Assembly (NCBI RefSeq): GCF_002056795.1
Contig: NZ_CP020104.1
Location: forward strand, 2,739,001 to 2,803,000
Length of the DNA: 64,000 bases
Origin: Spirosoma aerolatum
GTDB lineage: Bacteria; Bacteroidota; Bacteroidia; Cytophagales; Spirosomataceae
Direction of reading: 5' to 3'
Shown here: positions 438 to 55,077 of the stretch, piece after piece
How positions within the stretch are numbered: position 1 is the stretch's first letter
Layout: every line of letters starts with the position of its first letter
The notes under the pieces: model-generated
What the model saw: the letters and a program-made list of their open reading frames with translations, nothing else
Told to the model about the DNA's origin: nothing
The model's database searches: none
Position numbers and translations under genes: made by a program

Positions 438-518
438 TGATTGAATTGTTGAATGATTGAATGATTGAATAATTGAATAATCGAAGGAACCCCATTCAAT
501 CATTCAACAATTCAATCA
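438..518. repeat. 26-bp perfect inverted repeat
   Basis: Arms 438-463 and 493-518 are exact reverse complements, separated by a 29-nt loop. The arms consist of the near-repeating unit ATTGAATG. The element fills the gap between the isomerase and reductase genes, so it would be transcribed between two genes of one operon. It belongs to the palindrome set found across the window. Confidence 0.95.
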
Positions 519-527
519 TTCACTCAT

Positions 528-1367
528 TTAGTATCCTCTGTCTATTTTCTTGTTGAATTCGGCTTTACGTTTTTCCTGCGTGGCTTGCATGGCTTCCGAA
601 AAATCGGCTGACTGGAGTTGGCTGGAGTTCCAGACGGCCACATACTGCAAACCGTCTTCGATGGATTTGTTGAGGCTGTAGTTCAAGACTCGTTTGGCTC
701 CCTGTACGGCTGTTGCCGGATTGTCGGCTATTTGATGGGCTAGTTTGTCGGCGGCTTCGAAGAGCTGATCGGGCGTATCGTAAACATGATTGACCAGGCC
801 AGTCCGCTCGGCAAAGGCGGAGTCGTAGTCGGCCCCGGTAAAGGCCATTTCGCGGGTAAAGCCCTGACCGATGATCTGGGGTAGAAACTGTAGACCGCCA
901 ATATCGGGCGTAATGGCCAGCTTCACTTCCCGGAGGCTGAATTTAGCATCGCGAGAGCATAGCCGGATATCGGCCGCTGCGATCATATTTAAGCCTCCAC
1001 CTATACACCAGCCATGCACAGCCGCAATAACGGGTTTGGGCGACTCATGCATTTTTTGAAACCCCGACTGCATTTGCCGAATCTGCGCCATCAGGTCGAC
1101 TCGTTGGTGGGCCAGTACGGTGCCCGTAGTCATTGTTCCAAGGCGCGGAAGCATTTGCATCACATTGAGGCCATAGCTGAAATGATCACCACTTCCCCGA
1201 AACACCAGGCAGCGAACGTCGGGCTTTTGGTTCAGTTCGTCCATGGCTCTGGGAAGTTCTTCCCAAAACTCAGGGCCCATCGCATTGCCTTTGCCAGGGC
1301 CAAGTAAAGAAATGGTCATCACCCCATCGGTCTGTGCGAAGGATAGTGACTGATAGGTTTGTTCCAT
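528..1367 (-). CDS. Enoyl-CoA hydratase/isomerase family, dienoyl-CoA isomerase-like
   Basis: Crotonase-fold enzyme of 279 residues. The oxyanion-hole glycines are at SYGLN (about 66) and GWCIGGG (about 119-125). Three acidic residues line up with those of the peroxisomal delta3,5-delta2,4-dienoyl-CoA isomerase ECH1: Asp133 (AADIR), Glu147 (REVKL) and Asp155 (TPDIGGLQ). This favours a dienoyl-CoA isomerase over a plain hydratase, because hydratases carry a Glu pair instead. It would shift double bonds of 3,5-dienoyl-CoA in the cytoplasm, feeding the reductase encoded just downstream. The two genes are 92 bp apart, with only a palindrome between them. Confidence 0.88.
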   Translation of the reverse strand: MEQTYQSLSFAQTDGVMTISLLGPGKGNAMGPEFWEELPRAMDELNQKPDVRCLVFRGSGDHFSYGLNVMQMLPRLGTMTTGTVLAHQRVDLMAQIRQMQSGFQKMHESPKPVIAAVHGWCIGGGLNMIAAADIRLCSRDAKFSLREVKLAITPDIGGLQFLPQIIGQGFTREMAFTGADYDSAFAERTGLVNHVYDTPDQLFEAADKLAHQIADNPATAVQGAKRVLNYSLNKSIEDGLQYVAVWNSSQLQSADFSEAMQATQEKRKAEFNKKIDRGY

Positions 1368-1520
1368 CGAGCTTAGGCTAAGTGGCTAGTCGTTCTTTCC
1401 TGTACTAATAAAAGAACGGATTAGGCAATAATCTAATTAGTATGCAAGCATACGATTGATGTAAAGGTAGCAGAATTGCACCATGAAACGCAACAGCCCT
1501 TTGGGTTGACGAACAAATTC

Positions 1521-3029: not shown

Positions 3030-3042
3030 TGGTCAAAGAGTG

Positions 3043-3098
3043 AAAGAGCGAATGAGTGAAAGAGTGGCTGACGCGTTTTGTTCACTCATTCACTCTTT
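3043..3098. repeat. Inverted repeat, AAAGAG family
   Basis: Arms 3043-3060 and 3081-3098 (18 bp) match with one mismatch. The right arm covers the first two bases of the DUF1800 stop codon (3097-3099, minus strand). The sequence is built from AAAGAG/TGAGTG units and resembles the larger palindrome at 47664-47762. Confidence 0.85.
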
Positions 3099-4725: not shown

Positions 4726-4858
4726 TCACTACGATTACGTTACGGTTAAAGACGATCTGAACGGATTGTGAACTAGTTTTTAATCGTCTGATAAATAACA
4801 AGTTTACTGATTTGTTGAAAAATATACAATAAATCAGCGGTTTAAAACGAGGTCTGCT

Positions 4859-6496: not shown

Positions 6497-6686
6497 TTAA
6501 TCCGTCTGTTCCAGTGAAAAGCTAGCATAGTGGGTTAGGAGGGGTAAACAATTTAAGCCCTGATGGCAAAAGAACCAGCAGAATCCTGCAATTTCGATAA
6601 CAAAAAATGAGCCGTTTTTACGGTTTGGTAGGCTTAGTCAACTGTATTTGGTTTACTGTTGACCGTTTGCCTTAAAATTCTCGGTT

Positions 6687-7805: not shown

Positions 7806-7808
7806 TGA

Positions 7809-8120: not shown

Positions 8121-8257
8121 GGTAGCTAGTAATTTGATTAATAAGCTATTGAAAAGACTCCGTTCGTACCAATAGGGTTGCAACATACGACAAAAAAGAG
8201 TACGAACTAAAGCAACAGCGTCGGGGTTCTCTAAGCGAATTGAATTAGCTTACTACA

Positions 8258-8854: not shown

Positions 8855-8859
8855 AAACG

Positions 8860-8892
8860 ACGAGCCGCTGAGAAAATCTCAGCGGCTCGTTT
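8860..8892 (+). terminator. Rho-independent-type terminator after FMN reductase
   Basis: Perfect 14-bp stem 8860-8873 / 8877-8890 with a 3-nt loop AAA, GC-rich, followed by TT. It begins 6 bp after the reductase stop codon and sits between convergent genes, so it may act in both directions. Confidence 0.8.
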
Positions 8893-8919
8893 GCTAGATT
8901 CCCGCTTTTTGTGACTACT

Positions 8920-16065: not shown

Positions 16066-16075
16066 TAGCCAAACT

Positions 16076-16143
16076 AATGTCGATCAACAAGCCGAAAGGT
16101 CCTGAACATGTGTTCAGGACCTTTCGGCTTGTTGATCGACATT
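16076..16143. repeat. 33-bp perfect palindrome between convergent genes
   Basis: Arms 16076-16108 and 16111-16143 are exact reverse complements with only a 2-nt loop. It lies between the stops of YtxH (plus) and DUF2911 (minus), so it could act as a bidirectional terminator, but it lacks a long T-run and is much longer than the other terminators here. Confidence 0.95.
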
Positions 16144-16147
16144 AAAC

Positions 16148-23767: not shown

Positions 23768-23845
23768 TAGATTAAACACGGAGCCGCAGAGCGCACAGAG
23801 GAAATATAAATTCTCTGTGCGCTCTGCGGCTCCGTGTTTAATCTA
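23768..23845. repeat. 33-bp perfect inverted repeat
   Basis: Arms 23768-23800 and 23813-23845 are exact reverse complements with a 12-nt AT-rich loop. The arm contains the ACGGAGCCGCAGAGC type of sequence that recurs in many bacterial genomes. The right arm includes the S9 peptidase stop codon (23843-23845, minus). It lies between convergent genes. Confidence 0.95.
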
Positions 23846-27098: not shown

Positions 27099-27386
27099 AT
27101 GCAATACGTTGTTCACGCATACGACCATACCGACCCCGATGCGCTGGATCGGCGGATGGCCGCCCGTCCGGCTCATTTTGAGTACGTCCGTCAACTGAAA
27201 GAAAAAGGAGAGTTTATTTTGGGCGGTGCCCTGCTCGATCCCGATGGGAAAATGATTGGTTCGATGCTTTTACTAAATCTCGAATCGAAGGACCGATTGG
27301 ATGATTACTTGCAAAATGACCCGTATATTGTGCAGGGCGTTTGGGAAACCATCGATGTAAAACCCTTCCGTCAGGCGAGTGTGTAA
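27099..27386 (+). CDS. YciI family protein
   Basis: A 95-residue single-domain YciI protein with a dimeric alpha/beta (ferredoxin-like) fold: MQYVVHAYDH, the conserved RPAHFEYVRQLKEKGEFILGGALLD, and DPYIVQGVWETIDVKPF. Family members are small cytosolic enzymes, one characterised as a dehydrochlorinase-like protein, but most are unassigned. Full length, start ATG. Confidence 0.92.
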   Translation: MQYVVHAYDHTDPDALDRRMAARPAHFEYVRQLKEKGEFILGGALLDPDGKMIGSMLLLNLESKDRLDDYLQNDPYIVQGVWETIDVKPFRQASV

Positions 27387-27462
27387 ATGAATAATGAACA
27401 ATGGATAATGTAATTCTTCGATTGATGTTCAATTATTCATTGTTCGTTTTGCATTATTCATC
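27387..27462. repeat. Imperfect inverted repeat, AT-rich
   Basis: Left half around 27387-27410 and right half around 27431-27462 pair as ATGAATAATG / CATTATTCAT and GAACAATG / CATTGTTC, with a few extra bases in the right arm. It lies between the YciI and HAD genes and belongs to the same AT-rich style of palindrome as 438-518. Confidence 0.7.
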
Positions 27463-32018: not shown

Positions 32019-32174
32019 TTTTCTCAGCCATCCCCCTTTCTAAAACCTAAGAAGTTCTTTGCGTTAGTCAACTTACAGCGTTTTGCTCAGGTAGGGTGAG
32101 GGCAGGTTCTTACGACCGGCCCTCACGAGCTTCAAATAGGGGTTTTAGAAAAGGGAATAGCGTGACGTTTGAGG

Positions 32175-38589: not shown

Positions 38590-39863
38590 GATTTTTCAGC
38601 ATAAATAAAACCTCAGCAACGCGCTTTTGTCCTTCCGGGGAACGAGGAATCTCAAGCCTTCCTATTCGTAGCGTTGAGATTCCTCCTATCGTCGGAAGGA
38701 CAAAAAAGGTAGGGCGGATTAGTGTCCAAACCCTAACCTTTGTACTCGCTCTCTTCATCCAAACCTACGCGCAGGATACGGTTCGTTATGTCGGCACCAC
38801 CTTATCCAATGTCGATTATCACCACGGGCAGTTGAGTCCGGCGGTGGGTGTACATAACATTCAGGTGTTTCGGGCCAATCGGGAGCACCCTGAACTAGCG
38901 GGTGGTACCAACTGGACCTACAACCATGCGCCTATGCTGGCATACTGGAACCAGACGTTCTACCTGCAATACCTCAGCAATCCGGTTGGTGAACACGTTC
39001 CACCGGGGCAAACGCTGCTGCTGACTTCAAAAGACGGGTATTCCTGGTCGAAACCGACCATTATTTTTCCCCCGTATAAAATTCCCGATGGCTGGAAGAA
39101 AGAAGGTCGCCCGGAAGTCGCTAACGATTTGTATGCGGTCATGCACCAGCGTATGGGTTTCTTCACTGCTAAGAATGGCAGGCTATTGACACTGGCTTTC
39201 TACGGTATCGTGATGGGGCCCAAAGATGATCCCAACGACGGCAACGGCATTGGTCGGGTGGTGCGTGAAATTTATGCAGATGGCACGTTTGGGCCGATTT
39301 ACTTCATTCGATACAATTCATCCTGGGACAAGGCGAAATCGGCATATCCGTTCTATACCCGTTCGAAAGACAAGGGGTTTGTGGAGGCCTGCAACGAACT
39401 GCTGGCGAATCCGCTGATGATGCAGCAGTGGGTAGAAGAGGCCGACCGCAACGATCCGCTTATTCCGCTCAAAAAAGACATAAAGGCATTCAGCTACTAC
39501 CATTTGCCCGACAATCGGGTGGTGGGGCTTTGGAAACACGCCCTGACCAGCATCAGCAAGGATGAGGGTAAAACCTGGCTCTACAATCCGCTACGGGCAC
39601 CGGGCTTTGTGAACAGCAACGCCAAAATCTGGGGGCAACGCACCTCCGATGGGCTATTCGCCACTGTCTATAATCCGTCGGAATTTCGCTGGCCGCTGGC
39701 CGTTTCAACCAGTAAGGATGGGCTGAACTATACTAATCTGCTGCTGGTCAATGGCGAGATCACGACGATGCGGTACGGTGGGGCGTATAAATCATACGGT
39801 CCCCAGTATGTACGAGGTATTGAAGAAGGCAACGGTACGCCCCCGACGGTAATCTGTGGGTGA
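38586..39863 (+). CDS. BNR-like beta-propeller protein, 5' part of a frameshifted gene
   Basis: 425 residues, first part of one gene that continues at 39860-40561. The start ATG overlaps the previous stop (ATGA). The first 45 or so residues are encoded by a palindrome (38625-38705); a signal peptide-like stretch follows (VQTLTFVLALFIQTYAQ). Then comes a five- to six-bladed propeller with blade motifs such as LLLTSKDGYSWSKP, SISKDEGKTWLYNP and VSTSKDGLNYTN (Asp-box like). It ends NGTPPTVICG only because of one missing C in the run at 39840-39844; adding it gives NGTPPDGNLWVTYSMNKEDIW. Possibly a lyase or exo-hydrolase of the block. Confidence 0.75.
   Translation: MRFFSINKTSATRFCPSGERGISSLPIRSVEIPPIVGRTKKVGRISVQTLTFVLALFIQTYAQDTVRYVGTTLSNVDYHHGQLSPAVGVHNIQVFRANREHPELAGGTNWTYNHAPMLAYWNQTFYLQYLSNPVGEHVPPGQTLLLTSKDGYSWSKPTIIFPPYKIPDGWKKEGRPEVANDLYAVMHQRMGFFTAKNGRLLTLAFYGIVMGPKDDPNDGNGIGRVVREIYADGTFGPIYFIRYNSSWDKAKSAYPFYTRSKDKGFVEACNELLANPLMMQQWVEEADRNDPLIPLKKDIKAFSYYHLPDNRVVGLWKHALTSISKDEGKTWLYNPLRAPGFVNSNAKIWGQRTSDGLFATVYNPSEFRWPLAVSTSKDGLNYTNLLLVNGEITTMRYGGAYKSYGPQYVRGIEEGNGTPPTVICG
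38625..38705. repeat. Interrupted inverted repeat within the 5' end of the propeller gene
   Basis: Outer arms 38625-38637 / 38693-38705 and inner arms 38644-38655 / 38674-38685 pair; 6-7 nt between them do not. The core GTCCTTCCG...GAGGAATCT resembles those at 48960 and, more loosely, 42933. Confidence 0.85.
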
Positions 39864-40561
39864 CCTACAGCATGAACAAGGAGGATATCTGGGTATCGAA
39901 AATTCCGGTATCAATCACTGGTGATGTATCGACTCACCCGAACGAAACCTTTGCGCTGATGCCTGCCGGTGATGAATTGACATACTGGAACCTCTACAGT
40001 CCACTATACGCGTCGGCAAAAATCGAATCGGTAGCAGGTGCGAGAGCGCTGGTGCTTCGGGACAAAGACCCCTTCGATTACGCCAAAGCCGAGCGAGTAA
40101 TCCCTGATTCGAAGAAGCTGGCTGTCGAGTTTACGGTCGTCCCTCAGCAAGCCAACAAAGGCACACTCCAGATTGAATTTCAGGACGCCAAAGGCAACGC
40201 GGCCGTTCGACTGATGTTCGATGCGGATAGCCTGTTCAAAGCCAAAGTTGGCTACCGTGATTCGGGGATTCAGAAATATGAAGCTACTAAACAGTACGAC
40301 GTACGGATCGAGCTGGACCGCGACAAACGGATGTTTACAGCCTTCGTTAACGGCCAGCCTAAAGGAACCAGGCTATTTTTCGCGCCGGTGGCTTCGTTTC
40401 GCCGGGTAGTTTTCCGAACGGGTGGGGTTCGCCGGTTTCCCGATGCCGATACACCCACCGATCAGAACTACGATCTGCCCAAAGCGGGCGAACTGGAAGC
40501 CGAAGCGGTGTTTGTAATCAAGTCATTCAAAACGAGTTCGTTGCCGTCACGCGCTGAATAG
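39860..40561 (+). CDS. 3' part of the frameshifted propeller gene, with beta-sandwich domain
   Basis: 233 residues, and the natural continuation of 38586-39863 once one C is added to the run at 39840-39844. It starts in the last propeller blade (WVTYSMNKEDIWVSKIPV) and continues into a laminin G/LamG-like or DUF1080-like beta-sandwich (about 60-225: AVEFTVVPQQANKGTLQIEFQDAKGNAAVRLMFD, YDVRIELDRDKRMFTAFVNGQPKG). On its own it lacks a signal peptide, which supports fusion to the upstream part. The two parts together would give about 658 residues. Confidence 0.75.
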   Translation: MTYSMNKEDIWVSKIPVSITGDVSTHPNETFALMPAGDELTYWNLYSPLYASAKIESVAGARALVLRDKDPFDYAKAERVIPDSKKLAVEFTVVPQQANKGTLQIEFQDAKGNAAVRLMFDADSLFKAKVGYRDSGIQKYEATKQYDVRIELDRDKRMFTAFVNGQPKGTRLFFAPVASFRRVVFRTGGVRRFPDADTPTDQNYDLPKAGELEAEAVFVIKSFKTSSLPSRAE

Positions 40562-40671
40562 AACACAGATTTTTATGATGGTTATGATCAATTAAGATTT
40601 GCCATTGTGTCTATTGATAATCAGTTTTTTAACTAAAAAATAAATCATAACCATCATAAAAATCTGTGTTC
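40561..40671. repeat. 28-bp perfect inverted repeat over a start codon
   Basis: Arms 40561-40588 and 40644-40671 pair exactly, with a 55-nt loop. The right arm contains the GTG start (40666-40668) of the next gene, and the left arm begins at the last base of the previous stop codon. Confidence 0.95.
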
Positions 40672-42186
40672 CATAAACTGTTAGCTACCTTTTTCTTCCT
40701 CCTTTCACCACAACTGAAAGCGGAGATTGTATTGCCGCGCATTCTGGGGCATAACATGGTGCTACAGCAGGGAAAACCCTTGGCTATCTGGGGAAAAGCT
40801 GCGGCTGGCGAGACCATAACGGTTCAGTTTGCCGGGCAAAATCTCACAACCTCAGCCGATGCCGCCGGGGCATGGCGCGTTACCCTGAAACCGCTCAAAG
40901 CGTCGGCCATACCAGCTGAACTGGTCATTTCCGGGACGAATACGATCCGACTGCAAAACATTCTGGTGGGTGAAGTCTGGCTGTGTTCCGGGCAGTCGAA
41001 CATGGAGTACACGATGCGGAAAAACAGCAAAGTGAACCCGGCACTGGCTACTCAACCCGTCGATGGACACAATCCCGTTGAAGAGTTATCCTTTGCGCAC
41101 AATCCACAGATTCGGATTTTTCTGGTCAACCGCAAAGAGTTGAGCAAGCCCGATTCACTCCATCGCGGGTGGGGCGTGGCAGCAGATTCAGCGTTACGGT
41201 CGTTCTCCGCACCCGCTTATTTCTTCGCCAAAGAGCTTTACAAAAACCTGAACGTACCAATTGGTGTCATCTCGTCGGCCGTACCGGGTAGCCGGATTGA
41301 ACCGTGGATTTCGGAGACTGCTTTTCGTGAAGATATTTTTTACACGAATCAGAAGATTGACGGAGAACCGGGCAAATTTTATGAGCCGATGATTCATCCG
41401 CTGGTGCCGTTTGCCATAAAGGGTTTTCTGTGGTATCAGGGCGAATCCAATTGTTTTCTGAACGAAACCGTCACCTATTCGCACAAGCTCAAAACGCTGA
41501 TTACAAGCTGGCGAGCTGCCTGGTCAGATCAGAAACTACCGTTTTATTACGTCTCGCTGGCTCCGTTCAAGTACTCCGAATCGAAGCAGAAGATTGTGTT
41601 GAGCAAAGAAACCTTGCCCGAGTTCCGCGAAGCGCAGGAATGGGTGTTGACCATGCCCAACACAGGCATGATTACCACAACCGATCTGGCTGCTGACTTG
41701 TCCGATATTCATCCGCCTTTCAAATGGGAAATCGGTCGGCGGCTGGCCCTGCTGGCATTAGCCAACACCTACAACAAAGCTGACATCGTTGCCGAAGGGC
41801 CTGTCTTTGACAAGATGACGGTAAAAGGACGCTCCGCTGAGCTGACGTTCTCGCAAATCGGTAGTGGTCTGGTTAGCAAAGACGGTCAACCGCTTACGGG
41901 CTTTACGGTGGCTGGGGCCGATAGCGTTTTTGTTCCGGCTCAGGCGCGTATCGACGGCAAACGTGTGCTTGTTTCGTCTCCCAGTGTGGCGCATCCGATA
42001 GCCGTTCGTTTTGCCTGGGACGAAGCCGCCCAACCAAATCTGTTCAATAAAGAAGGGCTTCCCGCCCGGCCATTTCGAACGGATAATCCGCTCAAGGGTA
42101 AGCGCCTATTGGAACATAATCGCTCAGCAACGTCGGATCGTCGGAACGGACGTTCGACTCAATCAATAACCCGAAACAACCAATGA
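40666..42186 (+). CDS. Sialate O-acetylesterase-like SGNH esterase
   Basis: A 506-residue exported esterase starting at GTG 40666, with signal peptide about 1-19. Catalytic Ser111 lies in WLCSGQSNMEY; the block LWYQGESN carries the conserved Gly/Asn region, and the Asp-x-His pair is in ADLSDIHPPFKWEIG (about 340-355). It would remove acetyl groups from an acetylated glycan; in this context pectin or its side chains are more likely than sialic acid. The last 25 residues (HNRSATSDRRNGR...) look unstructured. The stop overlaps the DUF3826 ATG (ATGA). Confidence 0.9.
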   Translation: MFHKLLATFFFLLSPQLKAEIVLPRILGHNMVLQQGKPLAIWGKAAAGETITVQFAGQNLTTSADAAGAWRVTLKPLKASAIPAELVISGTNTIRLQNILVGEVWLCSGQSNMEYTMRKNSKVNPALATQPVDGHNPVEELSFAHNPQIRIFLVNRKELSKPDSLHRGWGVAADSALRSFSAPAYFFAKELYKNLNVPIGVISSAVPGSRIEPWISETAFREDIFYTNQKIDGEPGKFYEPMIHPLVPFAIKGFLWYQGESNCFLNETVTYSHKLKTLITSWRAAWSDQKLPFYYVSLAPFKYSESKQKIVLSKETLPEFREAQEWVLTMPNTGMITTTDLAADLSDIHPPFKWEIGRRLALLALANTYNKADIVAEGPVFDKMTVKGRSAELTFSQIGSGLVSKDGQPLTGFTVAGADSVFVPAQARIDGKRVLVSSPSVAHPIAVRFAWDEAAQPNLFNKEGLPARPFRTDNPLKGKRLLEHNRSATSDRRNGRSTQSITRNNQ

Positions 42187-42881: not shown

Positions 42882-42932
42882 GGGGTATTAGTTAACGTGA
42901 ATAATGGAGGATTTACGAATAGAATAATACTC

Positions 42933-43018
42933 GTTTTTTGTCATCCCGACCTAAGGAGGGATCTTGGGCAAGGGACTATTTACCGAAGATCCCTCCTTAG
43001 GTCGGGATGACAAAAAAC
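42933..43018. repeat. 33-bp perfect inverted repeat
   Basis: Arms 42933-42965 and 42986-43018 pair exactly, with a 20-nt loop. The core TGTCATCCCGA...GGAGGGATCTT resembles the elements at 38625 and 48960. It sits in a 271-bp gap between DUF3826 and the next propeller gene. Confidence 0.95.
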
Positions 43019-43152
43019 AATAGTATAAACAACTGACAATCAGTGGAAAATTGCAGATTCTATCCGTTGTTCACGTTAGTTATCAGGATAATTTGAGATT
43101 CCTCCCTGGGGACTAGGCGTACCAGTCGGAATAAAAAAAAAGAGATAAAAAA

Positions 43153-44286: not shown

Positions 44287-44290
44287 AAAA

Positions 44291-44440
44291 TACCCCACCC
44301 TAATCCCTCCCCTTAACATATGGGGAGGGACTTTTTGGAGTCCATCTCATGGCCTTCCTCTGGAAAACAGACAAAAGACTATTCGGATTCCGCATTATGC
44401 CCCTCCCCTGAAATCAGGGTAGGGGTTGGGGTGGGGTTGA
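44291..44440. repeat. Two inverted CCCCACCC-type elements
   Basis: The left unit (44291-44329) and right unit (44400-44438) are inverted, imperfect copies of each other. Each also folds alone (CCCTCCCC / GGGGAGGG at 44305-44312 / 44322-44329). They lie between the propeller gene and the Fe-alcohol dehydrogenase. Confidence 0.75.
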
Positions 44441-44460
44441 TTTGAACAAGACAATAACGA

Positions 44461-45609: not shown

Positions 45610-45612
45610 CGT

Positions 45613-46527
45613 ATGAAAAAGAAATACCGGGGTGTTGTTGTTCCGCTGGTTACGCCCCTGACCGAAACGTATCGACTGGATGTAGCGGCCGTTGAACGAA
45701 TGATGGGCAACCTGCAGGCTGCCGAAGCGATGCCCTTTGTACTAGGCACAACGGGCGAAGCCACATCGCTTCCCATGTCCGTAAAGAAGGCGTATGCCAA
45801 CGAAGCTGCCCGGCTCAAATCGGCCGACATGTTGCTATACGCCGGTATTTCGGGAAATTGTCTGGAAGAGTCTGTCGAGCTGTCGAATTACTGTTTTGAT
45901 GTGGGCGTCGATGCGGTATGTGCTACGCTGCCCAGTTATTACGCTCTGTCGGATTCCCAGATGAAGCGGTATTTCGAACAACTGGCCGATCAACTGAACG
46001 GTCCATTGATCATCTACAATATCTTCGCTACAACACGCATGTCGATTCCAATTTCGCTCATCGACGAGTTAAGCTACCATCCAAACATCGTTGGGCTTAA
46101 AGATTCGGAGCGTAGTACAGAACGACTTGCCGAGTCTGTTGCGCTTTGGGCTGATCGGCCTGATTTCAGCCATTTTATGGGTTGGGCGGCCCGGTCGGCT
46201 CATGCTTTACTGGCGGGCAGTGATGGACTTGTTCCCAGCACCGGAAATCTGTTTCCCGGCATCTACCGCGATATGCTGAAGGCTGTCGAAGAGGGCGACG
46301 AAGAGAAGGCGTTTTATTATCAGAACCAGTCCGATCTGTTTGGCCACGTGTACCAGTCGGGTCGAACGCTGGGCGAGTCATTATGGGCGCTTAAAGTGCT
46401 GATGCAGGAGAATGGCCTTTGCGGTACGACCATGATGCCCCCGTTGCAACCTCTTTCCGAACAGGAAGAAACCGAGCTAAAAACCGCCTTCGCCGACCTG
46501 CTGGTTAAGGAAGAGATACAACTATAA
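45613..46527 (+). CDS. DapA-family (dihydrodipicolinate synthase-like) lyase/aldolase
   Basis: A 304-residue class I aldolase of the DapA/NanA family. The carboxylate-binding GTTGEA is at 45-50, catalytic Tyr135 is in IIYNIFATT and Schiff-base Lys163 in VGLKDSE. It forms a Schiff base with pyruvate-like keto acids. In this setting lysine synthesis is unlikely; a 2-keto-3-deoxy acid aldolase or dehydratase for sugar acids from the glycan fits better. Start ATG 3 bp after the dehydrogenase stop. Confidence 0.92.
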   Translation: MKKKYRGVVVPLVTPLTETYRLDVAAVERMMGNLQAAEAMPFVLGTTGEATSLPMSVKKAYANEAARLKSADMLLYAGISGNCLEESVELSNYCFDVGVDAVCATLPSYYALSDSQMKRYFEQLADQLNGPLIIYNIFATTRMSIPISLIDELSYHPNIVGLKDSERSTERLAESVALWADRPDFSHFMGWAARSAHALLAGSDGLVPSTGNLFPGIYRDMLKAVEEGDEEKAFYYQNQSDLFGHVYQSGRTLGESLWALKVLMQENGLCGTTMMPPLQPLSEQEETELKTAFADLLVKEEIQL

Positions 46528-46581
46528 GTTCGCCGTTTACAGCCTTCGGGTTACGGTTGGCAGATGCTAAAACTGTTGTCA

Positions 46582-46637
46582 GTAATGCGGGTGGAAACCC
46601 GCGATTTCTAAAGTTAGCGGGTTTCCACCCGCATTAC
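46582..46637. repeat. 21-bp perfect inverted repeat before the pdxA-like gene
   Basis: Arms 46582-46602 and 46617-46637 pair exactly, with a 14-nt loop. The right arm ends 3 nt before the ATG at 46641, so the RNA hairpin would occupy the ribosome-binding region. Confidence 0.95.
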
Positions 46638-46640
46638 ACG

Positions 46641-47708
46641 ATGAACACAACTAATAAACCGATAATCGGCATTACAATGGGTGACCCGGCCAGCATTGGC
46701 CCCGAAATCGCTGTGAAAGCCCTGCTGAATCCTGCTGTTTACGAGCTATGTAATCCTATTCTGGTGGGCGATGCGGACGTTTTTCGGGATATTACCGAAC
46801 GGCTAGCCCTCAATGCCCTCATCAATCCAGTTCAGGCTGTCGATGAGGCAAAATTTGAACTGGGTACGGTCGATGTATACGATCTGGCGAATGTCGATCT
46901 GGCGCAGTTGACATTCGGCGAAATATCGGCGATGGCCGGAGAAGCAGCTTTTGCTTCCGTCAAAACCGTGATCGAGCTGGCCCTGGCCGACAAAATCGAC
47001 GCGACCGTAACCGGGCCAATCAACAAGAAATCCATCAACGAAGCGGGGCATCATTTTGCGGGGCATACCGAAATCTACGCGCATTATACCAACACCAAAA
47101 AATACGGGATGCTGCTGGTGGAAGACCAAATGAAAGTGATTCACGTATCAACCCACGTATCGCTTCGACAAGCCTGTGATCTGGTCAAAAAAGACCGGAT
47201 TCTGGAAGTGATCGAGTTACTGCACAACGGGCTGATCTCACTGGGCGAAACCAATCTGAAAATTGGCGTAGCGGGTCTGAACCCACACGCGGGCGATTCG
47301 GGGCTTTTTGGGACAGAAGACGACGAGGAAATTCTGCCAGCCGTGCTGGAAGCGAAACGGCGTGGTTTTGATGTGGAAGGTCCGGTTCCGGCCGATACCC
47401 TATTCTCGAAAGCAGCAACGGGCTATTACGGCGGTGTTGTGGCCATGTACCACGACCAGGGACACATTCCATTCAAGCTGACCGGCTTCAAATGGAACGC
47501 CGAAAAAAAGCAGATGGACAGCGTAAAAGGGGTTAATATTACGATGGGCTTACCCATCATCCGCACGTCGGTCGATCATGGAACCGCCTTCGAAATTGCC
47601 GGAAAAGGCGTCGCCAGCCCCGATGCCATGGTGTTAGCCATTGAGTCGGCGGTGAGGTTATCAAAAGAGCGAAAGAGTGAAAGAGCGAAAGAGCGGCAGT
47701 TGGTATAA
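46641..47708 (+). CDS. PdxA-like 4-phospho-tetronate dehydrogenase
   Basis: A 355-residue enzyme from the ATG at 46641; an upstream ATG at 46557 would read through the palindrome, so I reject it. Landmarks: ITMGDPASIGPEI at the start, the metal-ligand His in GHHFAGHTE, HVSTHVSLR, MYHDQGHIPFK and TMGLPIIRTSVDHGTAFEIAG. Next to a DUF1537 kinase this is the PdxA2 type, which oxidises 4-phospho-threonate or -erythronate to dihydroxyacetone phosphate and CO2, rather than vitamin B6 synthesis. The last 15 residues (SKERKSERAKERQLV) are encoded by the next palindrome. Confidence 0.9.
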   Translation: MNTTNKPIIGITMGDPASIGPEIAVKALLNPAVYELCNPILVGDADVFRDITERLALNALINPVQAVDEAKFELGTVDVYDLANVDLAQLTFGEISAMAGEAAFASVKTVIELALADKIDATVTGPINKKSINEAGHHFAGHTEIYAHYTNTKKYGMLLVEDQMKVIHVSTHVSLRQACDLVKKDRILEVIELLHNGLISLGETNLKIGVAGLNPHAGDSGLFGTEDDEEILPAVLEAKRRGFDVEGPVPADTLFSKAATGYYGGVVAMYHDQGHIPFKLTGFKWNAEKKQMDSVKGVNITMGLPIIRTSVDHGTAFEIAGKGVASPDAMVLAIESAVRLSKERKSERAKERQLV

Positions 47709-47762
47709 TCTTTTCTATCGTTCAGCAATCCACGCTTTCGCTCTTTCACTCTATCGCTCTTT
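47664..47762. repeat. 28-bp inverted repeat over the 3' end of the pdxA-like gene
   Basis: Arms 47664-47691 and 47735-47762 pair with one mismatch. Both are made of AAAGAGCGAAAGAGTG-type units, as at 3043. The left arm codes for the PdxA-like C-terminus; the right arm ends 5 nt before the kinase ATG. Confidence 0.9.
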
Positions 47763-47767
47763 AAACT

Positions 47768-48928
47768 ATGCTTGCTGTTGTTGCTGATGATTTGACGGGA
47801 GCCGCTGAGCTGGCGGGGATTGGCGTTACTTATGGGTTGACCGTAGAACTTGCCATGTTCGTCAACCTCCGATCAAAAGCGGATTTGCTGGTGATTTCGA
47901 CCGATGCCCGTTCAGTTTCGGAAAAGGAGGCCGTTCGGGAAATGACGGGTGTGAGTGCAGCTTTACGCATGATGAATCCCGAACTGATTTTTAAAAAAGT
48001 TGATTCGGTACTTCGTGGACATGTCATTGCCGAAACGAAAGCGCAGTTGACGGTTCTTGGTCTGGAACGGGCATTTATTGTTCCGGCCAATCCGGCCTTG
48101 GGTAGAATCCTGATCGACGGGCATTATTACGTTCAGGGGCAACCGATCCACCAGACCCATTTTTCAAAAGACCCGGAATTCCCGATAACGGAATCGAATG
48201 TCATGAAGCGATTAGCGGTGAATGAGGCACCAATGGCTGTTCAATCTGCTACAGCAACGTTGCCTGAACGGGGGATTGTCATTGGTGAGGTGGGCACGCA
48301 GGGTGATCTGATGACCTGGGCTAACCGACTTGACGAACAGACCCTACCGGCTGGTGGAGCTGGTTTTTTTACCGCTATTCTGGAGGCTCGTTACGCCCTC
48401 AAAAAAACGGCTCGTCTGTCGGGAGCATTGGGCGTATGCAGACTTTATGTGTGTGGAAGCGCCTTTGGACACCGTGTTGAGCTGGTAAAAAATGCAGCCA
48501 TGGCCGGAAATTTCGTTTGTTATATGCCAGATGCTCTGATGGCATCCGCCGACGAGCACCCCGTCGAATTAGCCGATTGGGTGTCCAGTATTGTTACATG
48601 TTTTCAACGGCATGAGCAGGTTATTATGGCAATTAATGCCGATTCGAACGTTGATACGCAGGGATTAGCAATCCAGTTACGGACAACCCTGGCAAAAGCT
48701 GTAAAGCGCGTGCTTGGCCAGATTCCCGTAGACGAATTGATTATCGAAGGTGGCTCAACAGCATCGGCTGTGCTGCGCGAAATGGGCGTTAATCGGCTGT
48801 CTCCAACGCAGGAATTGGCCGCTGGTGTTGTCCGAAGTGCTGTTGTTGGCAATAGCCATTTGCATATAACCGTAAAGCCAGGCAGTTACCGCTGGCCAAC
48901 TGATTTATGGGCATTTCATGGTCATTGA
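47768..48928 (+). CDS. Four-carbon acid sugar kinase family (DUF1537)
   Basis: A 386-residue kinase. The N-terminal substrate domain starts VVADDLTGAAELAG and has KKVDSVLRGH (about 76-85) and VPANPALGRI; the C-terminal nucleotide domain has EGGSTASAVLREMG. Family members phosphorylate D-threonate, D-erythronate, 3-oxo-tetronates or related acids at C4. With the PdxA-like gene directly upstream, the D-threonate route (kinase, then PdxA2) is the closest known model. Cytosolic. Start ATG 5 nt after a palindrome arm. Confidence 0.92.
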   Translation: MLAVVADDLTGAAELAGIGVTYGLTVELAMFVNLRSKADLLVISTDARSVSEKEAVREMTGVSAALRMMNPELIFKKVDSVLRGHVIAETKAQLTVLGLERAFIVPANPALGRILIDGHYYVQGQPIHQTHFSKDPEFPITESNVMKRLAVNEAPMAVQSATATLPERGIVIGEVGTQGDLMTWANRLDEQTLPAGGAGFFTAILEARYALKKTARLSGALGVCRLYVCGSAFGHRVELVKNAAMAGNFVCYMPDALMASADEHPVELADWVSSIVTCFQRHEQVIMAINADSNVDTQGLAIQLRTTLAKAVKRVLGQIPVDELIIEGGSTASAVLREMGVNRLSPTQELAAGVVRSAVVGNSHLHITVKPGSYRWPTDLWAFHGH

Positions 48929-48937
48929 ATGCTGCAT

Positions 48938-49058
48938 AATAAACGTTTTCTATCTTTTTTTCTGTCATTCCGAGGAACGAGGAATCTTCGGGCGAGGAAG
49001 AAAACACGATGCTTAGCCGAAGATTCCTCGTTCCTCGGAATGACAGAAAACGTTTATT
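48938..49058. repeat. Compound inverted repeat (32-bp perfect core)
   Basis: Core arms 48960-48991 and 49017-49048 pair exactly around a 25-nt loop. Outside them, 48938-48950 pairs with 49046-49058, so the structure has a bulge. The core TGTCATTCCGAGGAACGAGG is the clearest member of this family in the window. It lies between the kinase and the symporter. Confidence 0.95.
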
Positions 49059-49106
49059 ACAATGTATAGAATGACATGCCATTAATGACACTAAATGACG
49101 ATTTAA

Positions 49107-50867
49107 ATGTCAAACCCGACCTTAAACGTAATTGATTTCCTGATAATTGGCGCCGTGTTGATTATCAATCTGTATTTCGGGCTTCGCTACGCCCGCAACC
49201 AGCGCACAACCGAAACCTATTTTGCCGCTCGTGGCCGGGTACCTGCCTGGGCCATCGGGATGTCGCTGCTGGCGACGCTGATCAGCAGCGTTACGTTTCT
49301 GGGGTATCCCAGCGAAGGCTTTTCATCGAACTGGCTTTTGTTGGTGCAGGGCCTGATGGTACCTATCGTGCTGCTCGGAACGATCTGGTTCATTGTTCCG
49401 CTGTATCGTAAAGCAATCGGTCTGAGTACCTACGAATATTTCGAAAAAAGGTTTGGTGCGTTTGCCCGCTACTATAGCTCCACAGCGTTCGTCCTCAGGC
49501 AGTTTTCGTCGATGGGAACGGTTTTCTTTCTCCTGTCGGTAGCCCTCACCAACATGACCGGTGGCGACACGTTCTACATCATTGTTGTCGTCGGCCTGAT
49601 CATCATCACTGTAAACCTGCTGGGCGGTATCGAAGCGGTTATCTGGCTCGATGTGTTTCAGGGCTTTATGCTCTTTGCGAGTGGTATTCTCTGCGTCGTG
49701 GTCATTCTGCTTTCGGTCAAGGGCGGCTTTTCGGAGGTTATCAACGTCGCTTCGGCCAACGGACGAACCGGCTTCGGGCCGTACGATCTGGACTTTACGA
49801 AGCTGACCTTCGTAGTAATGGCCATCAACGGTATGTTCTACGCCATCCAGAAATATGGAACCGACCAGACGGTAGTGCAGCGGTACCTGACTGCCAAAAC
49901 CGACAAAGCCGCCATCCGGGCGTCGATACTGGGCATTTCGCTGACCGTTCCGGTCTGGGCGTTGTTTATGTTTATTGGCACCGCTCTGTTCGTCTATTAC
50001 AAGCAGCAGCCACTTCCAGAAGGCATGCGCCCGGACGCGGTGTTCCCGTATTTTATCATGACCCGATTCCCGACGGGCGTGGTTGGGTTCATTCTGGCGG
50101 CCATGATCTCAGCCGCTATTTGTAGCCTTAGCGCCGATCTGAACTCACTGGCTGCTGTTGGTCTGGAAGATTTCTACAAAAAATTACGGCCAACCCGTAC
50201 CGACCGCGAGTACCTGACTGTTAGCAAAACGATTGTCGTCGTATCGGGCCTGATTGCCATTGGCATCGGAGCCATCTATTTGCAGGCCGGTAACGAAGGC
50301 GTTCTGGGCATTGTCTTTACGCTATACGCCATTTTTTCGGGCGGTATTGTCGGTATTTTTCTGCTGGGTATATTCAGCGCACGGGCCAACAAACAGGGTG
50401 TTAACATGGCCATAGTCGTCTGCATATTGTTTACGGCCTATGCCTTTCTGACCTCCACCCAAATCGGTTATGGCGACGGAAAAAAACTCCTGCTTGACCT
50501 CGGAGTGTATAATTTCACACACCACAAACTGATGCTGGGCGTATACAGTCACCTGATCGTGATTGGCGTGGGATATGTTGCCAGTCTGTTTTTTCCTAAA
50601 CCCGAACTGGACGCTAATTTGCTGTATAGCGGCTGGCGGAAACAGTCGAAAGCAAAGCTGGCAGAAGGTACGTCGAAACGTACAGCATATGGCAACGCAG
50701 GAAAAATCACTGCTGTTCTGCTGCTGATCAGTAGTATCGCTACAGTGGCTCAAACGTCTGACGATCTATTCAGAAAGCCACTCAAAGACGTTGTTCACCA
50801 GGCCGAAAGCCGGGAATTGGTCAGAATTCGGTATCCTGAAGAGTTGGTGAAAGACAAATATGGGTAA
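49107..50867 (+). CDS. Sodium:solute symporter (SSS family)
   Basis: A 586-residue inner-membrane transporter with about 13-14 hydrophobic helices, the first at VIDFLIIGAVLIINLYFGLRYA. SSS signatures include FAARGRVPAWAIGMSLLATLISSVTFLGYPSEG and AAMISAAICSLSADLNSLAAVGLEDFYKKL. It has a polar tail after the last helix (about 555-586). It probably imports the monosaccharide or sugar acid released by the upstream exported enzymes. It is last in the block and is followed by 589 bp without a gene. Confidence 0.93.
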   Translation: MSNPTLNVIDFLIIGAVLIINLYFGLRYARNQRTTETYFAARGRVPAWAIGMSLLATLISSVTFLGYPSEGFSSNWLLLVQGLMVPIVLLGTIWFIVPLYRKAIGLSTYEYFEKRFGAFARYYSSTAFVLRQFSSMGTVFFLLSVALTNMTGGDTFYIIVVVGLIIITVNLLGGIEAVIWLDVFQGFMLFASGILCVVVILLSVKGGFSEVINVASANGRTGFGPYDLDFTKLTFVVMAINGMFYAIQKYGTDQTVVQRYLTAKTDKAAIRASILGISLTVPVWALFMFIGTALFVYYKQQPLPEGMRPDAVFPYFIMTRFPTGVVGFILAAMISAAICSLSADLNSLAAVGLEDFYKKLRPTRTDREYLTVSKTIVVVSGLIAIGIGAIYLQAGNEGVLGIVFTLYAIFSGGIVGIFLLGIFSARANKQGVNMAIVVCILFTAYAFLTSTQIGYGDGKKLLLDLGVYNFTHHKLMLGVYSHLIVIGVGYVASLFFPKPELDANLLYSGWRKQSKAKLAEGTSKRTAYGNAGKITAVLLLISSIATVAQTSDDLFRKPLKDVVHQAESRELVRIRYPEELVKDKYG

Positions 50868-51456: not shown

Positions 51457-54432
51457 ATGCTTTCTTTCAAACGCCTGAATCGGCTTGTGGGCTGGCTCAT
51501 ATTTGCCATTGCGCTCGTGACCTATGCCATGACCGTCGAACGCACAGCCAGTTTCTGGGACTGTGGTGAGTTCATTGCTTCCTCGTTCAAACTTCAGATT
51601 CCTCACCCACCCGGCGCTCCGTTGTTTCTGATGCTGGGCCGGATTTTCTCCATGCTGTCGCTAGGGGATTTAACGCGAGTAGCTTACTGGATCAATATGG
51701 TCTCGGTCGTTGCCAGCGCCTTCACGATTCTGTTTCTATTCTGGACCATTAGCTTGCTCACGCAAAAGCTGTTAGCCACTCGATACGCCAGCCAGCCAGG
51801 CAGCGAGTACAGTCCGGCCGATAGCCGGTTGATTATTGGCTCCAGCGCTGTAGGCGCCTTGGCGTATACCTTCTCCGATACCTTCTGGTTTTCTGCTGTT
51901 GAAGCCGAAGTGTACGGCATGTCTTCGTTTTTTACGGCTATTGTGGTGTGGGCTACCTTTACTTGGGAACGTATTGAGGACGAGGCTACAGCCAATCGCT
52001 GGCTTATCCTGATTGCCTATCTGGTTGGCCTCTCGATAGGCGTTCATTTACTCAATCTGGTTATTCTACCTGCACTGACGCTTATTTATTACTTCCGCAA
52101 ATGGTCTAAACCAACGTTCTGGGGGGGCGTAATGGCAATAGGCGTTGGGCTAGCTATATTGGGACTGATCAATGCATCGATTCCTGGGCTTCCGGCCATG
52201 GCTTTCGTGGTAGAGCGATTCGGTGTCAACACGGTAGGGTTACCCTTCAACTCCGGTACGATTTTATTTGTACTAGCGATGATCGGAGCCGTGACCTATG
52301 GTCTGGTTTGGTCCATACGTCGCCAAAAGGTGCTGCTGAATACAGCGCTGCTTGCGGTTGCCTTTCTACTGATTGGGTATGCTTCCTACATGCAGGTGCT
52401 GGTCCGGGCAGGCTATAACCCGCCCATCAATGAAAACGATCCCAGTGATATCCTCAAATTCCGGGCGTATCAGAATCGGGAGCAGTATGAAAGCCGTTCC
52501 TTGCTGTATGGCCCCATTTTTACGGCACGACCCATTGACTCAAAAAAGGGTGCGCCCATCTGGAAGCGCGATAAGGATAAATATATCATCGTCGATTATT
52601 ACCCCGAATACATCTACGCTCCTGGCGACCAAATGCTGTTTCCCCGTATCTATAGTACGCACCTGAACCATCCTCAATTATACCGACAGTTGCTTGGACT
52701 GGCCGAAGGGCAGAAGCCGACCATGGGGGATAATCTGAGATTTCTGTTTACCTATCAGCTCAATCACATGTGGTGGCGCTACCTGATGTGGAATTTTGCC
52801 GGGCGGGAAAGCGATGTGGAAGGAGCTACATATCTGTTGCCTTGGTCATCGAATCAACACCTGCCCGATCTACTAAAAACCAACAAAGCCCACGACAACT
52901 TTTACATGCTGCCGTTTCTGCTGGCCCTGTTGGGGATGGTGGTTCAGTATCGGCATCGTCGACCCGATTTTGTTACGGTAGGCATACTTTTCCTGCTGAC
53001 GGGCATTGCACTCCAGATTTTCTTAAATTCTCCCCCTTCCGAACCCCGTGAACGCGACTACATCTACGTGGGGTCCTTCTATTTCTTTGCCATCTGGCTT
53101 GGACTGGGCGTGGTGGCTATGGTCGATTTCGTCCGTGCAATCATCGCGCGCTTTCAGTCTGTAGCGTTTCGCCATGAATTTGTCTTGGGAATGTGCCTAT
53201 TGATTCCAATCATGATGTGTGTCAAAAGCTGGGATAATCACAATCGGGATCACCGCTTTCACTCGGTTGATTTTGCCAAGAACATGCTCAACTCGTGCGC
53301 CTACAATGGGATTCTGTTTACCGAAGGCGATAACGATACGTTCCCCCTTTGGTATGCCCAGGAAGTGGAAGGCTTTCGGCGCGATGTACGGGTGTGTAAT
53401 CTGAGTCTGCTGGGTACAGACTGGTACATTCAGCAGATGAAGCGGAAGACCTATGAGTCAGATGCAGTTCCGATGTCGTTAGAGCTCGATCAATTTAGTA
53501 AAGGCAAGAATGATATTGTTCCCTTCTACGAGATCGCCGGGGTCAAAAACGGGATTGATCTGAAGCAATACATCAGTTTGGTTAAAGCGAACAATCCCGC
53601 CATTCAGGTGCCCTTGACGACGGGTGAAATGACGAATATTTTGCCTTCATCCGTCCTGTTTCTACCCATTGACAAACAAGCGGTGGATCAGGCAAAATTT
53701 GTTCCGGCTTCTCTACGTCCGCTGCTGAAAGACACCATGCAATGGACCATTGGTAAAAAAGATCTGCTAAAACCAGATCTGGTGATGCTCGATATGATTG
53801 CCACCAACAATTGGAAGCGCCCCATTTATTTTTCCAGTACGCTGGCCAATGAGCATTACCTAAACCTAAAAAATTACCTGCAGCTAGAAGGGTACGCGTA
53901 CCGGTTAATGCCAGTAGCGGTTCCGGGAGCCACCGACGGTTACGTCAACTCCGAGGTGATGTATGACACTATGATGCACAAGACGTTCTGGCGGGAGTTC
54001 AATAATCCTGAGGTGTACTACGATGAGACCTACAAAGGGCCGCCCGTCATTTCGGCTCGCCTGGCGTTCCTGCGATTGACGGACCAGCTTTTACGAGAAG
54101 GCCAACTGGACAAAGCACGTCAGGTGCTGGACTATTCGCTCAAGGTGATGCCCGACAAGAGTCTACCCTACGACCAGATAGTAGCGAACTATGTGCCGTG
54201 TCTGTTTGCGGTCAATGATGCTAAAAAGGCCCTGTCATTGGCGGATACGATGGTTCATCGCGCCGACCAGAACCTAACCTACGCCAAAACCAGCCAGAGC
54301 ACATTCAGCAGCCCAAACGGCGACCTGTATGTTTTGCAAACGATTGTTGAGGCCTGTAAACAAGCAAACCAGCCCGTTGCAACGGCCAAGTACGATGCTA
54401 TTTTCCAGAAGCATCTGAAGGCGTTTGACTAG
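51457..54432 (+). CDS. DUF2723 membrane protein (putative protein O-mannosyltransferase type)
   Basis: A 991-residue polytopic protein. The N-terminal DUF2723 domain starts with a helix (LVGWLIFAIALVTYAMTVERTASFWDCGEF) and has the conserved acidic pair region ASFWDCGEFIASSFKLQIPHPPGAP. About 12 membrane helices extend to residue 590. A long soluble region follows with GDNDTFPLWYAQEVEGFRRDVRVCNLSLL and a TPR-like tail (LDKARQVLDYSLKVMP). It resembles GT39-like O-glycosyltransferases, which glycosylate exported proteins. Start ATG. Confidence 0.9.
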   Translation: MLSFKRLNRLVGWLIFAIALVTYAMTVERTASFWDCGEFIASSFKLQIPHPPGAPLFLMLGRIFSMLSLGDLTRVAYWINMVSVVASAFTILFLFWTISLLTQKLLATRYASQPGSEYSPADSRLIIGSSAVGALAYTFSDTFWFSAVEAEVYGMSSFFTAIVVWATFTWERIEDEATANRWLILIAYLVGLSIGVHLLNLVILPALTLIYYFRKWSKPTFWGGVMAIGVGLAILGLINASIPGLPAMAFVVERFGVNTVGLPFNSGTILFVLAMIGAVTYGLVWSIRRQKVLLNTALLAVAFLLIGYASYMQVLVRAGYNPPINENDPSDILKFRAYQNREQYESRSLLYGPIFTARPIDSKKGAPIWKRDKDKYIIVDYYPEYIYAPGDQMLFPRIYSTHLNHPQLYRQLLGLAEGQKPTMGDNLRFLFTYQLNHMWWRYLMWNFAGRESDVEGATYLLPWSSNQHLPDLLKTNKAHDNFYMLPFLLALLGMVVQYRHRRPDFVTVGILFLLTGIALQIFLNSPPSEPRERDYIYVGSFYFFAIWLGLGVVAMVDFVRAIIARFQSVAFRHEFVLGMCLLIPIMMCVKSWDNHNRDHRFHSVDFAKNMLNSCAYNGILFTEGDNDTFPLWYAQEVEGFRRDVRVCNLSLLGTDWYIQQMKRKTYESDAVPMSLELDQFSKGKNDIVPFYEIAGVKNGIDLKQYISLVKANNPAIQVPLTTGEMTNILPSSVLFLPIDKQAVDQAKFVPASLRPLLKDTMQWTIGKKDLLKPDLVMLDMIATNNWKRPIYFSSTLANEHYLNLKNYLQLEGYAYRLMPVAVPGATDGYVNSEVMYDTMMHKTFWREFNNPEVYYDETYKGPPVISARLAFLRLTDQLLREGQLDKARQVLDYSLKVMPDKSLPYDQIVANYVPCLFAVNDAKKALSLADTMVHRADQNLTYAKTSQSTFSSPNGDLYVLQTIVEACKQANQPVATAKYDAIFQKHLKAFD

Positions 54433-55077
54433 GGTATTCGGACCGATAGGCCCTAGGAAAAAATCGATCCCAATTAATCTATGTCCCATAGCGAGCTTGT
54501 AAACCGTGCCATTTGAGGCTCTATTAAGGATGGCCGTGTTCCAGGCGCTAGCTTGGAAAAAGGATTTCTCTTCTCCAGTATTCCATCAGCTAACCTACCC
54601 GTTAGTTAGCTGATGGAATACTGAAACCTGTCCATCACTGCCAACAGGGCTACTACGGCACGGATGTATTTTTAACTATAGACAGATTTAGACCGACTGT
54701 AAAGCTGGGCCGAGGACTTAGGCAAACTCCGCTGAGCCAGAAACTAAATCAAGTCTACATTTCCCTACTCAGTTGTGTTGGAATATGGTAAAACACTACA
54801 TCTACGAAGAATAGTCCGTTTATTGGCCGATTCCAATCAGGACATGACAGGTTATAAAACTTAATCTTTTGATAGGTTTACGGAATGGCATAATTCCTGC
54901 TTAGCCTAATGGCTTCACTTAATCAAGTCATTGATTTTCATAACTATAAAATTTGAGTTTACTTCGTAGCGGATTTATAGTGTTGATTACACTGCCAGCG
55001 CTACCGAGGATACGCGGTACCAAGTTCCGCCTTCGGTAGGCGCGTAATGATTACTTCACGAATGATCAACAAATAGA
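54433..55077. other. Gene-free region before the LytTR regulator
   Basis: 645 bp with no supported open frame. It contains the palindrome at 54576-54623 and a leader hairpin (54998-55007 / 55033-55043, one bulge), 34 nt before the regulator's ATG. Confidence 0.65.
54576..54623. repeat. 19-bp perfect inverted repeat
   Basis: Arms 54576-54594 and 54605-54623 pair exactly around a 10-nt loop. No T-run follows. It is about 145 bp downstream of the DUF2723 gene. Confidence 0.9.

Follow-up and report, generated by a model that had tools for sequence, protein, structure and literature searches.

The window analysed here is a 64,000-nucleotide stretch of the Spirosoma aerolatum chromosome (7.96 Mb, one contig; bases 2,739,001-2,803,000), and our subject is the dispersed set of long palindromes, inverted repeats with two arms and a spacer, that lie in it mostly between genes. 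The original prediction for this stretch had listed inverted repeats at 13 sites, and an inverted repeat is present at all 13, no more than a few bases from the position given. With a detector that starts from an exact 10-mer seed and requires arms at least 85% matched, a spacer of at most 150 and a score of at least 14, we found 11 inverted repeats in the window, where 20 Markov-1 shuffles (the control for all palindrome counts) averaged 0.05, which excludes an abundance no greater than expected; at a score of 12 there were 15 against 0.6. The comparisons below somewhat favour a reading in which these are several extragenic palindrome families whose arms would be homogenised by replicative template switching.

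Four of the window palindromes are built of short units of 7-9 bp (no strand is assigned to any palindrome). That at 436..520 has TTGAATGA-type 8-mer units and arms matched over 28/28 around a spacer of 29; it lies on the 3' side of the enoyl-CoA hydratase-type gene at 528-1367 (minus strand) and has 7 other loci in the 1.264 Mb of this genome that we sampled (15.9% of 7.96 Mb), where copies were sought at E<0.05. AAAGAG-type 8-mer units make up both 3043..3098, at the gap separating two minus-strand genes (arms 18, 1 mismatch; 22 other loci), and 47664..47762 (arms 28, 1 mismatch; spacer 43; 23 other loci), and 27386..27461 is an imperfect palindrome of AATAATG-type 7-mer units (arms 24, 4-5 mismatches by register; 11 other loci). 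Three further sites are doublets of a family that we call GTCAT: 42933..43018 (ATCCC/GGGAT stem; arms 33/33, spacer 20), 48958..49050 (ATTCC/GGAAT stem; arms 34/34, spacer 25) and 38625..38705, whose hybrid arms (AGGAACGAGG plus ACGATAGGAGG, with the GTCCT variant in both) belong to different subtypes of the family and share just 13 exact bp. The palindrome at 46582..46637 is a REPIN of what we call the GCGGGT family (arms 21/21, spacer 14; 6 other loci). Three perfect stems have no further copy in the sample: 16075..16144, which fills a convergent gap (arms 34/34, spacer 2), 23768..23845, in CACGGAG/CACAGAG style and also in a convergent gap (arms 33/33, spacer 12), and 54576..54623 (arms 19/19, spacer 10). 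A whole-genome search in which the best 40 of 45 candidates were scored returned only the self-match for 16075, which is apparently single-copy, and only weak partial matches for 23768. The remaining listed sites are 40558..40674, of ACACAGATTTTTATGATG type (perfect core 28/28 at 40561, spacer 55; 4 other loci), and the imperfect 44292..44437, of CCCCACCC type (arms 22, 3 mismatches; spacer 102); we add two that the earlier list lacked, the imperfect 32027..32161 (arms 21 at 86%, spacer 93) and the short 8860..8890 (arms 14/14, spacer 3). The long exact arms claimed earlier are borne out by six perfect cores of 28-34 bp (438, 16075, 23768, 40561, 42933 and 48958), whereas 27387, 44292 and 38625 are weaker than had been implied.

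As predicted, the window holds no clear Y1 transposase (tblastn with four Y1 proteins, best E 0.008), and no other transposase type was present among the 20 open reading frames (ORFs) examined, the only ones covered. An Rfam search of the window returned nothing at gathering score. Several palindrome-bearing gaps belong to a co-oriented run of genes at 35419-50867 whose domains (DUF6298, BT_1020-like beta-propeller, sialidase-like CBM, SASA esterase, BNR, PdxA-like, and the sugar-/nucleotide-binding SBD_N/NBD_C) make it look like a glycan-utilisation (glycan-degradation-type) cluster.

The wider sample contains 174 palindromes, where three shuffles of a 464 kb block gave 0, and the arms are perfect in 108, of which 40 have arms of at least 26 bp. 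By a naive ORF caller, which leaves 11.3% of the sample intergenic, coding sequence makes up less than 20% of 148 of the 174, more than 80% of 13 and an intermediate share of another 13. Per intergenic kb, convergent gaps hold 2.08 palindromes, tandem gaps 1.21 and divergent gaps 0.54, and in tandem gaps the median distance from stop codon to palindrome is 9.5 bp: palindromes lie mostly directly 3' of genes and are sparser in divergent gaps. A rough tally of types, by ordered regular expressions on the arms, gives 27 of AAAGAG/GAATGA 8-mer type, 26 GTCAT, 12 AATAATG, 10 CGCAAGG, 7 GCGGGT, some smaller groups and 58 others. The palindromes of the window are several unrelated families and not a single element.

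We compared this genome with relatives from a set of 36 genomes of the genus, taking sequence from G029, G003 and G004 (400 kb from each) and, in pieces, from G021. Long matches put G021 at about 92-93% identity to S. aerolatum, and across 145 kb G003 and G004 share about 93% identity; synteny with G029 was not found beyond the cluster at 32-50 kb, and one G021 stretch (L189-L190) gave no alignment to the S. aerolatum blocks. Both flanks could be placed in G021 for 35 S. aerolatum palindromes; of these we scored by eye 25 as conserved, 4 as replaced, 5 as absent and 1 as ambiguous, which does not match the refuting picture of identity at orthologous positions without mobility. The four replacements, at 2903197, 6032484, 7563794 and 7651898, put a palindrome of another family into the same gap. 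Palindromes thus turn over between relatives that are about 93% identical. Two gaps of the window in the glycan-degradation-type cluster, at 35-50 kb, were followed in more relatives. That between 48928 and 49107 holds GTCAT in S. aerolatum, ACAGGATT-type palindromes in G029 and G002, another stem in G022 and no palindrome in G005, and is only 11 bp long in G003, G004, G016 and G032. The gap between 47708 and 47768 has the same 8-mer style in S. aerolatum, G029, G005 and G022, shorter stems in G004 and G032, and nothing above threshold in G003, G002 and G016. Inspection of empty sites by eye, for the target-site duplication that a MITE of a DDE transposon would leave, gave apparent duplications at two places only, TAGAT (G003 3479685) and TAAG (S. 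aerolatum 7653328); other absent sites were not clean. The TAGAT site is a copy of a CCACGGTTA palindrome family of G003 and G004, two genomes in which no Y1 gene was detected.

Where palindromes are conserved, their two arms tend to change together. From 92 ortholog rows we removed 22 that by eye were replaced, absent or not orthologous and 27 that showed an already counted locus again from the side of the other genome, which left 43 conserved loci over both species pairs; loci with gaps inside the arms were retained and only ungapped pairs scored. In these, 835 pairs are unchanged, 77 have a change in one arm only, 36 have a mirrored change, in which both arms changed and still match, and 5 have an unmatched double change. 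The 36 mirrored changes, at 16 of the 43 loci, compare with a null mean of 3.76 and a maximum of 12 in 20,000 draws, the null being built from the observed per-arm change numbers with mirrored changes included. Three loci are doubtful as possible replacements by another copy (a right-hand REPIN beside a RAYT-type gene, G003 3500979 and the 8-mer array 7654285); without them, 26 mirrored changes in 40 loci stand against 3.0, maximum 11 of 5,000. At individual loci, the G021 ortholog of 16075 has 6 mirrored and 4 single-arm changes, that of 23768 has 4 mirrored and 0 single-arm changes together with a spacer that looks inverted, and at G003 3500979 the comparison with G004 shows a 5-bp insertion mirrored in both arms (one base differs) plus 3 mirrored changes. 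No second match to 16075 is listed in its own genome (best 40 of 45 candidates), yet its ortholog differs by 6 mirrored changes, and we count this for template switching.

Spacers point the same way. At 4 of 34 distinct conserved loci with a spacer of at least 8 nt the spacer looks inverted between species: 23768, 6039061 and both REPINs that flank the RAYT-type gene of locus L156. Two of these inversions are strong and two weak; of 20,000 shuffles, 15 (23768), 6 (6039061), and 0 and 2 (the two REPINs) reached the observed score. In one of the REPINs (L156 1392-1478 against L157 1390-1478) the spacer is inverted between species while both 32-bp arms are identical. Both marks of homogenisation by template switching, both-arm changes beyond chance and spacer inversion, are present, and the original suggestion of ongoing creation or correction is supported by the mirrored changes, the near-symmetric insertion and the inverted spacers between close relatives. 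Its second proposed route, replication slippage, is better specified as template switching between arms. PMC8604942 describes arm homogenisation plus spacer inversion as the signature left when a polymerase switches template from one inverted repeat to the other; it states that transversions were favoured in earlier bacterial data, and that transitions were the more numerous in its own yeast data. PMC8794818 has compensatory changes arise in one step. Here mirrored changes comprise 16 transitions and 20 transversions, and single-arm changes 48 and 29.

Several observations weigh against template switching. Mirrored changes are confined to 16 of the 43 loci, and 77 changes touch a single arm. 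The GTCAT loci 2918728 and 6024945 show single-arm changes only (2 and 6, with 0 mirrored), and so do the ACAGGATT loci (6039061, 7644464) and the CGCAAGG loci (2914693, 6049882), which have no mirrored change either. Two of the four spacer inversions score low (0.37 and 0.45), and the spacer of 23768 is short and AT-rich, with its score equalled by 15 of 20,000 shuffles. The right-hand REPIN beside the RAYT-type gene in G021 may be a replacement, since it is 97% like the left-hand REPIN of S. aerolatum. Recombination between arms, or re-insertion, can also invert a spacer.

Matched arms could instead be kept by selection on an RNA hairpin, as a terminator or as protection of the mRNA 3' end, acting through ordinary compensatory mutations. 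The placement 3' of genes fits this idea, as do the gap between 47708 and 47768, which retains one stem style across several species, and the presence of AAAAAAGCC-type stems in 6 of the 174 palindromes. If RNA pairing were selected, however, G.U mismatches should outnumber A.C mismatches on the transcript, and in 102 tandem-gap palindromes we counted 25 G.U, 30 A.C and 23 others. A T-run follows the stem in 8 of the 102, against 5 on the opposite side; no window palindrome was terminator-like in the two stretches scanned, in a scan that permits loops of 3-8 only. Intrinsic (rho-independent) terminators, defined by a GC stem and a U-tract, were set aside on these same figures. Transversions are frequent among the mirrored changes (20 of 36), and such selection leaves no room for spacer inversion. 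We consider RNA selection an unlikely keeper of the stems. With no G.U excess and few T-runs, the DNA level offers the better explanation of pairing, although selection may still have a hand in placing palindromes 3' of genes.

The other route in the original prediction, a REP-type transposase, stands for one family. GCGGGT palindromes (7 of the 174) are extragenic inverted doublets with an inner GCGGGT..ACCCGC hairpin in their arms. The S. aerolatum genome has five Y1_Tnp matches: two IS200-like genes, a more distant member of the IS200 type that has a palindrome on one flank, and a pair of RAYT-type genes. For both RAYT-type genes the best or only NCBIfam match is the REP-associated transposase model, below its 80-bit cut-off (78.9 and 34.1). 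The weaker one (5893969-5894406, in locus L005) has GTAACGCGGGTGG-A/G-AACCCGC palindromes on both flanks, the family of window site 46582, and GCGGGT palindromes also lie on both flanks of its relatives in G021, G001 and G011. Its sole NCBIfam match is REP_Tyr_transpos, at 34 bits, with a Pfam Y1_Tnp E value of 3.1e-4, and its 146-aa protein covers positions 29-85 of the 146 of profile NF047646; judged by its sequence, the gene may be non-functional. Relatives of this gene have frames of more than 200 aa. The second gene (7571190-7571840) encodes 217 aa and scores 78.9 bits; no palindrome was detected within 1.5 kb of it or of its counterparts in G021 (contig C58) and G014 (contig C7), and this RAYT type is 90-97% identical across the three genomes.

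A genus-wide search with the 5893969 protein gave 31 matches in 19 of the 36 genomes. Thirty RAYT-type loci were cut out. By our count, palindromes flank the gene on both sides at 19 of them, on a single side at 8 and not at all at 3; the matches L174 and L181 belong to one gene, and some of the one-sided loci end at contig ends. The flanking palindromes vary from gene to gene and mostly have in common a GTA start and a nested hairpin. The link between the GCGGGT family and RAYT is strong.

The GTCAT family behaves differently. Each arm consists of TTTGTCAT followed by a hairpin with a covarying stem (ATTCC/GGAAT, ATCCC/GGGAT, ATGCT/AGCAT or ATTTC/GAAAT). A single-arm profile, which requires no pairing, found 46 arms in the 1.264 Mb at E<1, namely 20 head-to-head doublets and 6 singles, and the two inner stem pairs, which vary freely, match in 17 of 18 arm types. 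Allowing at most 2 mismatches, the pattern finds 181 arms in the whole S. aerolatum genome, is present in 35 of the 36 genus genomes and is most frequent in G016 (645 arms); a reversed control pattern gave one match in total. The exact pattern also occurs in at least 120 stretches of named genomes. Among 80 matches listed by title, 79 are from Bacteroidota (Flavobacterium, Mucilaginibacter, Pedobacter, Hymenobacter and others among the matches listed) and one is from a cyanobacterium, Dulcicalothrix desertica. Those named-genome loci contain 167 arms. For 101 of these, in 64 loci, there is an arm on the opposite strand no more than 130 bp away, and for 14, in 9 loci, one on the same strand. 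In two loci of other Bacteroidota (L266 and L294) the arms form same-strand clusters about 100-240 bp apart and not inverted doublets. Two ATGCT-type doublets of S. aerolatum, at 6029968 and 6114554, apparently lie by eye within larger inverted flanks with GCTGTTTAAA near the ends, which suggests a composite element of about 200 bp.

Between GTCAT copies, diversity is mirrored. Across 40 doublets from the sequence used here, arm identity is 95.1% within a doublet and 77.2% between copies, and 19 of the 40 have identical arms; 11 of these loci (among L076-L089) are biased in that they were found through similarity to the 48958 palindrome. Of 100 S. aerolatum arms listed by the exact pattern, 88 form 44 pairs, 37 of them identical against a shuffle mean of 4.63 (maximum 13 of 20,000). 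The 44 pairs fall into 18 arm types, across which kinds of stem and loop assort. Weighing against a straightforward use of this figure, the exact-pattern list omits departing arms and 12 of its 100 arms have no listed partner, so that 37 of 44 is an upper view. A profile-based set of 114 in-register doublets, a few of them mutually orthologous, shows 2.19 differences within against 6.52 between copies, with identical arms in 42. We found 16 rare states common to the two arms, spread over 13 doublets, where the null gives 1.29 (maximum 5 of 500), and 78 confined to one arm.

If RAYT (TnpA-REP) or some other Y1 protein moved every palindrome as a REPIN, perfect arms would simply mark recent insertion. 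The RAYT-flanking palindromes across the genus, the GCGGGT family of window site 46582 among them, speak for this; the nested hairpin layout of REPs also recurs in GTCAT arms, and G016, the genome richest in GTCAT, has five Y1_Tnp matches, the best two IS200-like in strength. But a GTCAT palindrome adjoins none of the five Y1 genes of S. aerolatum, tblastn with four Y1 queries found no Y1 protein in 120 GTCAT loci of named genomes, and G016 has no match to either RAYT query. Eight genomes (G003, G004, G005, G013, G023, G025, G031 and G033) gave no Y1_Tnp match at E<=1e-5, a Pfam threshold that overlooks weak RAYTs such as the 5893969 gene, and no match to either RAYT query; seven of the eight nevertheless hold 8-37 GTCAT arms each, and G003 and G004, both negative, differ in palindrome presence. 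The GTCAT family is thus not linked to RAYT by either flanking or co-occurrence searches, and in G016 a Y1 protein might still act on it. We dropped a single RAYT as the cause of everything, given GTCAT in genomes negative for Y1 and RAYT and the 120 loci devoid of Y1, and rate Y1-driven movement of all families as very improbable. The transposase proposal fits the GCGGGT family and is not supported for the others, given GTCAT in the seven negative genomes and the lack of a second listed match to 16075 in its own genome.

GTCAT and the other doublets might alternatively be propagated by way of a single-stranded hairpin, one arm priming or templating the other with the help of a putative enzyme, and copies being born perfect and decaying afterwards. 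This would account for mirrored diversity between GTCAT copies at the same time as two orthologous GTCAT loci decay unmirrored, and private variants stand in both arms of 5 listed S. aerolatum pairs against one arm in 3. That contrast, however, comes from just two comparable orthologous GTCAT loci, slow in-place template switching after insertion predicts the identical pattern between copies, and the 78 one-arm rare states also count against it, as does the fact that we know of no enzyme for such spread. We hold this route to be doubtful. In its fullest form, GTCAT doublets would be a phylum-wide family spread without RAYT by a hairpin-templated process, each copy born perfect, with mirrored diversity and families interchangeable in a given gap; we put this forward as a tentative picture and think it unlikely.

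Four known systems come closest. Cyanobacterial short tandemly repeated repetitive (STRR) sequences consist of degenerate 7-9 bp units placed head to tail between genes; the arrays seen here are, unlike these, arranged as inverted pairs. Like REPINs with their RAYT (TnpA-REP), the palindromes include extragenic inverted doublets of short hairpins, and the GCGGGT family flanks RAYT-type genes; unlike REPINs, GTCAT was found with no linked RAYT and occurs in genomes negative in three Y1/RAYT searches, and whole GTCAT arms, loop included, vary between copies yet tend to match within them. Compensatory changes in REPIN hairpins were already noted as common by Bertels and Rainey 2011 (PMC3116915), and this prior work limits what is new here. 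The GTAG- and CGTC-tagged palindromic repeats of PMC3733652 are short units, many of them paired as inverted dimers with 20-100 bp between them, and the CGTC group is given without a transposase association; here the tag is instead GTCA (GTCAT) or mostly GTAA/GTAC, and a term search of PMC3733652 found neither Spirosoma nor a word beginning with GTCA. Quasipalindrome correction by template switching shares with our loci arm homogenisation and spacer inversion (PMC8604942) and one-step compensatory changes (PMC8794818); it is described there for yeast genes and RNA genes, whereas here we infer it for several families of long extragenic palindromes in one bacterial genus. None of the listed titles or abstract openings from the open-licence literature names a Spirosoma palindrome or a GTCAT family.

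On the reading that we consider slightly the better bet, template switching acting on several families, the palindromes would have been laid down by differing routes, as a RAYT-linked REPIN, as the REPIN-like GTCAT with no mobiliser found, as palindromes of 7-9 bp units and as copyless stems. Origin differs by family, and it is for GCGGGT only that RAYT linkage is shown. During DNA replication the polymerase would then switch templates, so that one arm is copied from the other; a change in one arm would be mirrored or erased, and the arms would stay matched while their sequence drifts. In GTCAT, matching would be renewed mainly at the birth of a new copy, as suggested by the arm-by-arm decay of both orthologous loci examined, two loci in all.

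Palindromes that are matched and yet variable are a puzzle, because compensatory mutation seems too slow to make them and transposition should spread master copies. Spirosoma offers close genomes, more than 100 loci per Mb, mirrored changes and spacer inversions, and would thus make template switching, selection and transposition measurable against one another. The GTCAT family in turn poses the question of what moves a REPIN-like element in genomes without a detectable Y1 transposase.

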